Positions 29,739 through 55,238 of a stretch of 64,000 nt of DNA are shown here, piece after piece. The stretch covers positions 186,001-250,000 of the forward strand of contig DASTCX010000004.1 in NCBI GenBank assembly GCA_035710745.1, in the 5' to 3' direction. Every line of letters starts with the position of its first letter. The stretch's first letter is position 1. The position numbers and the translations under genes were made by a program. This DNA comes from Candidatus Eremiobacteraceae bacterium. Its GTDB lineage: Bacteria > Vulcanimicrobiota > Vulcanimicrobiia > Eremiobacterales > Eremiobacteraceae. Under the pieces are notes generated by a model that saw only the letters and a program-made list of their open reading frames with translations, searched no databases and was not told the DNA's origin.

Positions 29739-29774
29739 TATCCGCGATTGATGATGGAGCGGTCGACCTTGTAG

Positions 29775-29796
29775 CGGTCGAGCTTTAGCTCGACCG
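29775..29796. repeat. Intergenic palindrome, GTAGCGGTCGA family copy 1
   Basis: CGGTCGAGCT-TT-AGCTCGACCG, a perfect 10-bp stem preceded by TTGTAG. It matches the palindrome at 55181-55202 except for one base pair swapped from G-C to C-G with pairing kept. It lies 37 bases after the mrdA stop. No T-run follows, so it is REP-like rather than a terminator. Confidence 0.65.
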
Positions 29797-29829
29797 AAGC
29801 CACGCGTCCTGATTGTGCCTATCGACGCT

Positions 29830-50839: not shown

Positions 50840-51958
50840 GTGCGCGTTCTCGCACTCGAACTGACCGCCTTTCGGAACTACGCCGCCCTCCGCTTCGAGC
50901 CGCCGGAGGGCGCGTGCATCTTCGTCGGCCAAAACGCGCAGGGGAAGTCGAATCTGCTCGAAGCCCTCGCGTTGTTATCGACCGGCAAATCGTTTCGGAC
51001 TTCTCGTGAAGCCGATCTGATCAGCAGCGGCGCGCCGGCAGCGTCGGTGAGCGCACGCGTCCGCACGCGTCACGGCGAGGTCGTCGCGCAGTGCGTGATC
51101 TCGCGCGCCGGTGAGGGCGCGCGCAAGCGTTTCTTCCGGCAAGGCCGCGCCGTCCGCTACGGCGATTTCCTCGGCGGCGTCAATGCGGTGACGTTCATGC
51201 CGTACGACTTGCAGCTCGTCGGCGGCCCGGCCGCACTGCGGCGGCGCCTCGTCAACACCGCGCTCTCGCAAAGCAGCAAGCGATACTATCACGACCTTGC
51301 GGTCTATGCGAAGATCCTCGCGCAGAAAAACGCACTGCTCCGTGCGCCCACGGTCGATCGCGCGCTGCTCGACACGTACGACGATCAACTCGCTCCGGTC
51401 GGCGCACGGCTCGTCGCCGAGCGCGCATCGTACGTCCGTCGCCTCGGCGCGGATGCGAGCGAGGTCCACGCGCGCTGGGTCGGCGTGTCGCCGGCGCTCG
51501 CCATCCGTTACGAGCCGGCGCCGCCGATCGCTGACGAAGCGCCCGCTGCGATCGAGACCGGTCTGCGCACCGCGTTCGCACGCATGCGGCCTGCCGAAAT
51601 TGCGCGCCGCGGCTCGCTCGTCGGTCCACATCGCGACGACGTCTCGCTCTCGCTCGACGGAGAAGCGCTCTCGCGCTTCGGTTCGCAAGGACAACAACGC
51701 ACCGCCGTCCTCGCGCTCAAGGCCGCCGAATACGCGCTTCTACAGCGCGCCACCGGTGAAGCACCGCTTCTGTTGCTCGACGATGTTCTTTCCGAGCTCG
51801 ACGATGATCGGCGACGCGCCTTTCTCGAATCGATCGGATCGTTCGATCAAGCGTTCATCACGGCGACCGATCCGCCCGATATGCCTGCGGGCGTGTCAGC
51901 CTCGCTCATCTCCGTCGTCTCAGGCGCTCTCCGTCTCGCGAGTCCGCTCGCATCGTGA
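50840..51958 (+). CDS. recF: Recombination/repair protein RecF
   Basis: A 372-residue SMC-like ATPase that loads RecA at gaps. It starts with GTG: MRVLALELTAFRNYAALRFE; Walker A GQNAQGKSNLLEAL is near residue 30, the signature FGSQGQQRTAVLALKAAEYA near 277 and Walker B LLLLDDVLSELDDDRR near 308. The length is normal. The ALRLASPLAS tail ends directly before the structured repeat region preceding dciA. Confidence 0.95.
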   Translation: MRVLALELTAFRNYAALRFEPPEGACIFVGQNAQGKSNLLEALALLSTGKSFRTSREADLISSGAPAASVSARVRTRHGEVVAQCVISRAGEGARKRFFRQGRAVRYGDFLGGVNAVTFMPYDLQLVGGPAALRRRLVNTALSQSSKRYYHDLAVYAKILAQKNALLRAPTVDRALLDTYDDQLAPVGARLVAERASYVRRLGADASEVHARWVGVSPALAIRYEPAPPIADEAPAAIETGLRTAFARMRPAEIARRGSLVGPHRDDVSLSLDGEALSRFGSQGQQRTAVLALKAAEYALLQRATGEAPLLLLDDVLSELDDDRRRAFLESIGSFDQAFITATDPPDMPAGVSASLISVVSGALRLASPLAS

Positions 51959-51970
51959 ATCGCTCGTATC

Positions 51971-52102
51971 GTCTCGCCGCTCGGGCGCCGCTCGCGCGGC
52001 GACGCGGCGGAAGTCGGGAAATACTTGCCTTCCGCCGCTCGGTTCCGGCGGCTTTCGCCGCCTTCAACGCCCCGCTTAGAGCGACACCCCTCGCGGCGAG
52101 AC
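51971..52102 (+). repeat. Structured element, copy 1 (forward) in the recF-dciA gap
   Basis: An outer stem GTCTCGCCGC (51971-51980) pairs with GCGGCGAGAC (52093-52102). Inside are hairpin P2, GCGGCGGAAG (52004-52013) with CTTCCGCCGC (52029-52038) and a 15-base loop TCGGGAAATACTTGC; a linker TCGGTTCC; and hairpin P3, GGCGGC-TTTC-GCCGCC (52047-52062). Loop, linker and P3 recur in copy 2 on the other strand, whereas the P2 arms differ at four positions with pairing kept. It looks like a folded RNA or a cruciform-forming DNA repeat. I cannot name a known family. Confidence 0.65.
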
Positions 52103-52129
52103 ATTCGCGCGATGGCGATTTCGACTTGC

Positions 52130-52255
52130 GATGCGTGTCGGGGTGGCCGAAAGTCGCGGCGACGGAGGCGGCGAGAGCCGCCGGAGCCGAGCGCCGAGAT
52201 GCAAGTCTGCCCCGAATCTCGGCGCGTCCGCGCATCGGCCACCCCGACACGCATC
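52130..52255 (-). repeat. Structured element, copy 2 (reverse) in the recF-dciA gap
   Basis: A 21-bp perfect inverted repeat (52130-52150 with 52235-52255) forms the outer stem. Read on the minus strand, P2 is GCGCCGAGAT/ATCTCGGCGC with loop TCGGGGCAGACTTGC (12 of 15 bases as in copy 1), then linker TCGGCTCC (7 of 8 identical) and P3 GGCGGC-TCTC-GCCGCC. The 59-base core spans 52167-52225. The copies face each other with 27 bases between outer stems. The dciA start follows 20 bases later. Confidence 0.65.
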
Positions 52256-52274
52256 AGATGAGAGCGGATCGACG

Positions 52275-55149
<2,875 letters not shown>

Positions 55150-55180
55150 CGCAACGCGCTCCTCCTCGGCGGCCGTGTAG

Positions 55181-55202
55181 CGGTCGACCTTTAGGTCGAC
55201 CG
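55181..55202. repeat. Intergenic palindrome, GTAGCGGTCGA family copy 2
   Basis: CGGTCGACCT-TT-AGGTCGACCG, a 10-bp stem with TT loop, preceded by GTGTAG. It is the partner of 29775-29796, with one compensated base-pair change. It starts 32 bases after the gyrB stop, like its partner after mrdA. Confidence 0.65.
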
Positions 55203-55238
55203 ATAACCCTACGTATGAACCTGAACCTCGACATATGA

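Follow-up and report, generated by a model that had tools for sequence, protein, structure and literature searches.

Introduction

The gap between recF and dciA in the genome studied here (G000) holds two structured DNA elements that face each other, and the question raised by this locus is what such elements are and how they came to lie there. A preliminary description of the window (the whole stretch of DNA that was analysed, 64,000 nucleotides) offered a mobile structured repeat, a regulatory RNA for dciA-gyrB and an origin-related DNA structure as possible answers. The first of these has held up: copies are dispersed, the pair was gained recently at recF-dciA, and pairing has been retained through double changes. 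The two elements, designated A and B, are in all likelihood copies of an undescribed structured mobile repeat dispersed through one family of soil bacteria.

Two Facing Elements Between recF and dciA

Inspection of the sequence places two facing three-way-junction elements in the gap, A at 51994–52079 on the plus strand and B at 52150–52235 on the minus strand. Together with their outer stems they form a unit (51971–52255) inserted between recF (50840–51958, plus strand; Pfam SMC_N) and dciA (52275–53240, plus strand; Pfam DciA, E 1.4e-15). The conserved core of A, comprising the inner part of stem P1 and hairpins P2 and P3, is matched by covariance model R1 with 92.8 bits (E 3e-27) and that of B with 83.1 bits (E 5e-24); the pair is the only match to this model in the window.

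In A, the sequence shows an outer P1 stem of 10 bp, a locus-specific palindrome whose 5' arm (51971–51980) pairs with the 3' arm (52093–52102), both on the plus strand. Sequence and folding place hairpin P2 at 52004–52038 on the plus strand (arms 52004–52013 and 52029–52038, loop TCGGGAAATACTTGC), and the linker TCGGTTCC separates it from hairpin P3 (52047–52062, plus strand; GGCGGC-TTTC-GCCGCC, arms 52047–52052 and 52057–52062), for which covariation adds further evidence. The same parts are recognised on the minus strand in B from sequence and folding: an outer P1 stem of 21 bp formed by the inner side of the pair (52130–52150) and the outer arm (52235–52255), hairpin P2 at 52191–52225 (arms GCGCCGAGAT and ATCTCGGCGC, loop TCGGGGCAGACTTGC), and hairpin P3 at 52167–52182 (GGCGGC-TCTC-GCCGCC), with the linker TCGGCTCC between P2 and P3.

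The facing arrangement, the outer stems, P2, the linkers and P3 are all present in the sequence as first described. Folding z-scores are -4.3 for A and -9.2 for B, and none of 200 shuffles was as stable. The structures are not due to chance, since their family has further copies throughout the genome and in relatives, and the stems of these copies covary.

Architecture and Pairing of the Family

A covariance model was built from 35 aligned copies and then run on the genomes of the family. The repeat is about 90–130 bp long and consists of a conserved three-way-junction core within a longer palindromic stem. In order, the core comprises the inner P1 (GCGGGG/CCCCGC), a joint AC, P2, an 8-nt linker, P3 (GGCGGC-TTTC-GCCGCC) and a joint TCAGACG. 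The 10-bp P2 with a 15-nt loop initially reported applies to both window copies but not to the family, in which P2 is 5–7 bp in most copies and the loop varies around a CGGGA core. A copy of either type, A or B, may stand alone, or one of each may form an inverted pair.

Compensatory changes, noted at first between the P2 arms of the two window copies, extend to the many copies located by the covariance model: double changes affect 15 of the 18 pairs, and 94.7% of paired cells are standard (74 copies). This degree of pairing was matched by none of 500 shuffles, and sliding the partner arm abolishes it. G-T mismatches (18) are as rare as A-C mismatches (17; small numbers), and hence RNA is not preferred over DNA. 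If an RNA strand were under selection, G-U should be favoured; a cause at the DNA level, or one that is symmetric between strands, therefore explains the data at least equally well. The outermost stem arms are locus-specific yet self-complementary. Their mean pairing score is 16.0 with their own partner; swapping arms within a genome lowers it to 9.4 and shuffling to 5.6, and the own 3' arm is the best partner in 46 of 72 copies.

The possibility that the element is under selection to remain an open reading frame was considered and rejected, as 31–75% of frames are stop-free against a composition-matched expectation of 56%, which they do not clearly exceed. The A-B units of genome G003 often end in an apparent truncated inverted 5' arm of A (3' flanks of L079, L088, L090, and L094); inverted repeats that thus enclose whole units could drive unit inversion.

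Distribution and Family Identity

Covariance-model matches number 18 in G000, 13 in the sister species G001, 33 in G003, 15 in G012, 10 in G013, 8 in G004, 7 in G011, 5 in G010, and 2 in G005. Matches in G006 and G009 are weak only, and three genomes of the family have none. Altogether, about 95 good matches occur in one Eremiobacterota family, in 9 of its 14 genomes. When the source genome was searched at the DNA level, more matches likewise appeared on many contigs, and relatives hold many more. Among about 100 other genomes of the class none was convincing, and two weak matches fell outside the family (117 class genomes, covariance model). An exact-pattern search found 17 stretches, all from two Eremiobacterota assemblies, and none in the viral contigs searched; contig titles place the carriers in Candidatus Eremiobacterota.

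Rfam gave no real match in the window at gathering or relaxed thresholds, and matches to MIR918 (36 bits against a threshold of 268) were taken as artefacts of the long inverted repeat. The initial statement that no known family was recognised is therefore correct for Rfam, but not for the kind of element, since palindromic repeats of the REP and RPE type are known. In the literature searched, no repeat of this kind had been described before from Eremiobacterota.

Gain of the Unit at recF-dciA

In 11 relatives that carry no insert, recF and dciA overlap by 4 bp (gap -4), and in a twelfth (G009), also without insert, the start codon lies within a few bases after the recF stop. The gap measures +316 in G000 and +300 in G001, the only two genomes that carry the unit. 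The A-B unit was gained at this site in the genus of G000 and G001, and the ancestral recF stop codon overlapped the dciA start. The flanks of the two carriers are collinear (about 89%), and the unit itself lies on opposite strands (81%; blastn), such that the neighbour of recF is A in G000 and B in G001. The only hint of a target duplication is TGAA at both sides of the unit; other loci gave no clean empty site for comparison.

Genomic Context and Copies Within Genes

According to gene calls from a simple codon-usage script, 29 copies lie in convergent, 22 in tandem and 2 in divergent gaps, and 7 lie within ORFs. The repeat avoids divergent, promoter-bearing gaps. No copy contains an ORF of its own, nor does the DNA between paired copies, apart from an unrelated ORF in the 2.2-kb gap of L110, and none of the elements found encloses a gene for an enzyme. 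A transposon with A and B as its ends was rejected, as the sole widely spaced facing pair (L110, 2.2 kb) encloses that ordinary, non-transposase ORF. The idea that the element in G003 leads a family of downstream genes was also rejected, since the conserved downstream AAGCGAGGCGTTGAACGAGGAGCGG is a diverged B partner and not a ribosome-binding leader.

Several copies are carried in frame. Three genomes, G004, G011, and G013, have one within mfd (Pfam UvrB_inter and CarD_TRCF_RID in G004), and G003 and G012 have another within a Y-family gene that is imuB-like (Pfam IMS), at a position where most family genomes outside the genus of these two have a short linker only. In G004 and G011 the open frame of murF runs via the element into cofE (F420-0:gamma-glutamyl ligase), and the same junction occurs in a contig of G013 (loci L195, L196, and L205, genus g4). 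These three genomes also carry the mfd insert, and murF and cofE are separate in the other family genomes examined. The repeat breaks up or lies within core DNA-repair genes; it has also separated the once overlapping recF and dciA, and the murF-cofE fusion is linked to it.

Other observations concern individual sites. An A-B unit lies directly 3' of the RNase P RNA gene in G003 (L079, 392–771 and 830–1103), and the orthologous L098 of G012 has an inverted unit. Two element cores stand in direct tandem just upstream of an mfd-matching region in G010 (L102, C74:8200–8365). The same variable linker of Mfd bears in G001 (L156) a tandem peptide repeat, ERSSPTAIG, unrelated to the element.

Orientation at Orthologous Sites

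The elements are in opposite orientation at 7 of 13 orthologous sites (recF-dciA, L079/L098, imuB-like, L092/L097, L132/L123, mfd, and murF-cofE) and in the same orientation at L093/L101, L134/L118, L128/L119, L127/L122, L136/L126, and L110/L115. Flipped copies are reciprocal best matches between genomes at imuB-like, mfd, and L132/L123; at recF-dciA, B is the best match both ways and A is the best one way and second the other. Because the flipped copies are best or near-best mutual matches, inversion in place is likelier than independent insertion at these four sites, and we consider it likely there. The other three flips may reflect replacement by another copy. More generally, some of the orientation change could stem from such replacement or from independent insertion at a hot spot, not from inversion.

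The mfd and imuB-like frames stay open in either element orientation. The repeat might be an invertible DNA switch lacking a recombinase of its own, with its palindromic arms driving inversion locus by locus and giving mfd and the imuB-like gene two alternative linkers, a reading to which we give a low, though not negligible, probability. With such differences in orientation between orthologous sites, local inversion at bacterial palindromes becomes directly testable.

REPs and the RAYT System

In G000 and G001, RAYT genes (Y1_Tnp) are flanked by inverted REPs of GTAG type, GTAGCGGTCGAG..., and not by A or B. G000 carries 430 GTAG-type REPs in 2.97 Mb; the family (GTAGCGGTCGAGCTTTAGCTCGACCGCCGCGGCC) occurs in the window at 29768–29800 and 55178–55205 and at L137, L139, L147, and L150, and genus g3 has its own REP version (GAAGGGGCCGACTTTATGTCGGCCC). 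Outward-facing REPs adjoin or enclose many A/B units, at 31–67 bp from the core, and wherever a REP is close its head points outward. Of the A-only units in G003, five have REPs on both sides at 32–42 bp; in that genome the second REP of A-B units comes after B, and most units have a close REP on at least one side. In G000, a REP lies within about 70 bp of 8 of the 12 units, which is unlikely at the 9–20% of gaps that we estimate as a baseline.

These associations suggest that A and B could be the structured spacer of an inverted REP pair (REPIN/BIME), RAYT copying the whole REP-unit-REP assembly. That the same inverted REPs flank the RAYT genes fits such a role, as do the head-outward REPs around the G003 units and the excess in G000. 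However, no REP was found near the window pair or its G001 orthologue, and the G012 orthologues have none or only a remnant. Furthermore, a Y1_Tnp match is absent from three repeat-bearing genomes, including G004 and G011, and G002, G007, and G008 have Y1 but not the repeat; as presence of the repeat does not track that of Y1, dependence on RAYT is doubtful. The REPs may alternatively have inserted beside existing palindromes. On balance the cargo role appears rather improbable, although the sequences keep mobilisation of A/B units by RAYT as a live option.

Proposed Mechanism and Possible Target Palindromes

Dispersal, gain, retention of pairing through double changes, tolerance in frame, and occurrence in either orientation at orthologous sites are all directly documented by the comparisons, and they very probably define a family of non-autonomous palindromic mobile repeats in one Eremiobacterota family, akin in its working to RPE and REP and new in architecture. 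The repeat would move and be copied as DNA in the form of a folded single strand or a cruciform, and an enzyme not encoded by the repeat itself would recognise it in trans. A RAYT-type HUH transposase is one candidate enzyme, because many copies nest between outward-facing REPs. An inserted copy would then be tolerated as part of a 3'-UTR or as a protein linker. Both the orientation flips and the locus-specific, well-paired outer arms would be explained if the long inverted arms promote inversion on the spot and correction of one arm by the other. Neither an excised form nor an active copy was found, nor was there a clean target-site duplication, and no terminal inverted repeat is conserved across copies.

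The outer arms allow another origin. Only the inner core (GCGGGGACG...CGCCCCGC) may be mobile and may target the centres of existing palindromes, for example terminator hairpins, such that the arms would belong to the target. Arms that are locus-specific and self-complementary point in this direction, as does the preference of copies for gene 3' ends, and REP dimers within palindromes have been described (PMC3733652). In addition, L232 (G001:C52), orthologous to the full element L131 of G000, retains an outer palindrome (GGCGCGAGG...CCCTCGCGCC) without a core. Against this, recF and dciA overlapped in the ancestor, where no palindrome existed, but the inserted unit has both arms; the coreless site, for its part, could be a deletion product. 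Since the recF-dciA junction of the relatives has no palindrome, we favour precise deletion of the core at L232 over an empty target. At L135, G001 matches the flanks only, on contigs that end there. Insertion into existing palindromes is regarded as a tentative and rather doubtful alternative.

RNA and Origin-Related Readings

It is very unlikely that the repeat is a transcribed RNA of conserved function, whether a small or cis-regulatory RNA for dciA-gyrB or some other. Covarying stems, the conserved CGGGA loop motif and strong folding are features that such an RNA would have, but 12 of the 14 family genomes have the same recF-dciA order without the element, the unit of the sister species is inverted, copies adjoin unrelated genes, and G-T mismatches are not commoner than A-C. 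The preliminary description had named absence from close relatives with the same gene order as a refuting observation; on that basis the relatives without the unit, together with the inverted sister copy, refute a conserved regulatory or origin role, and the RNA reading for dciA can be considered largely refuted already.

BIME-type repeats elsewhere bind gyrase, and the window copy lies about 4 kb from dnaA; still, retention for function near oriC as an origin or chromosome-organisation element (a cruciform, or a gyrase or nucleoid-protein site) is likewise very unlikely, given that copies are spread over many contigs and mostly far from the origin, are few or absent in some relatives, and were gained only recently at recF-dciA, where the unit is inverted in G001. 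A caution follows for similar loci: strong covariation and proximity to oriC need not mean a regulatory RNA, as the covariation is carried here by a mobile palindrome.

Comparison with Known Repeats

Several classes of bacterial repeats resemble the mobile repeat described here. CIR elements of Caulobacter and Brucella likewise have two independent stem-loop arms and a linker, as the A-B pair has, but are reported to be non-intragenic and to carry GANTC sites (PMC2229807), a distinction drawn from their description only. Bacterial MITEs (ERIC, YPAL, NEMIS, and QMITE) are also small, non-autonomous, intergenic or sometimes intragenic, and form strong stem-loops (PMC2229807; PMC10969869). Unlike them, the Eremiobacterota repeat is GC-rich, forms a three-way junction and has no clear target-site duplication; instead of shared terminal inverted repeats, it has outer arms that vary from copy to copy, each fitting its own partner best.

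REPINs and BIMEs with RAYTs are similar in forming large hairpins from inverted pairs and in occupying gene 3' ends and convergent gaps (PMC3116915; PMC3733652), and the repeat is physically nested with a genuine GTAG-REP/RAYT system in these genomes. It differs in having a core of 86–90 bp and not a GTAG-tagged unit of 20–40 bp, and in a presence that does not track RAYT (PMC3116915; PMC3733652).

The Rickettsia palindromic elements (RPE), with RPE-4/RPE-6 of the CGTC-tagged REP superfamily, have been described (Ogata et al.; PMC3733652; PMC10969869; PMC2229807). REPs within genes are often reported in replication and repair genes (PMC3733652; PMC10969869; PMC2229807), and the Eremiobacterota repeat likewise occurs at mfd, the imuB-like gene and recF-dciA, with GACG flanking its hairpins. 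CGTC REPs are defined by an 8–9 bp stem with A-T first pairs, a 4–5 nt loop and a CGTC tag at one end (PMC3733652); P3 falls outside this definition, with 6 bp, mostly G-C, a 4-nt loop and GACG/CGTC placed 3 nt away. Like the RPE, the repeat is palindromic, about 100–150 bp long, intergenic as well as in frame in conserved genes, and has no dedicated transposase (PMC3733652; PMC10969869; PMC2229807). Unlike the RPE, it forms a three-way junction with a conserved core, occurs in facing A-B pairs, is found flipped at orthologous sites and joins two genes, murF and cofE.
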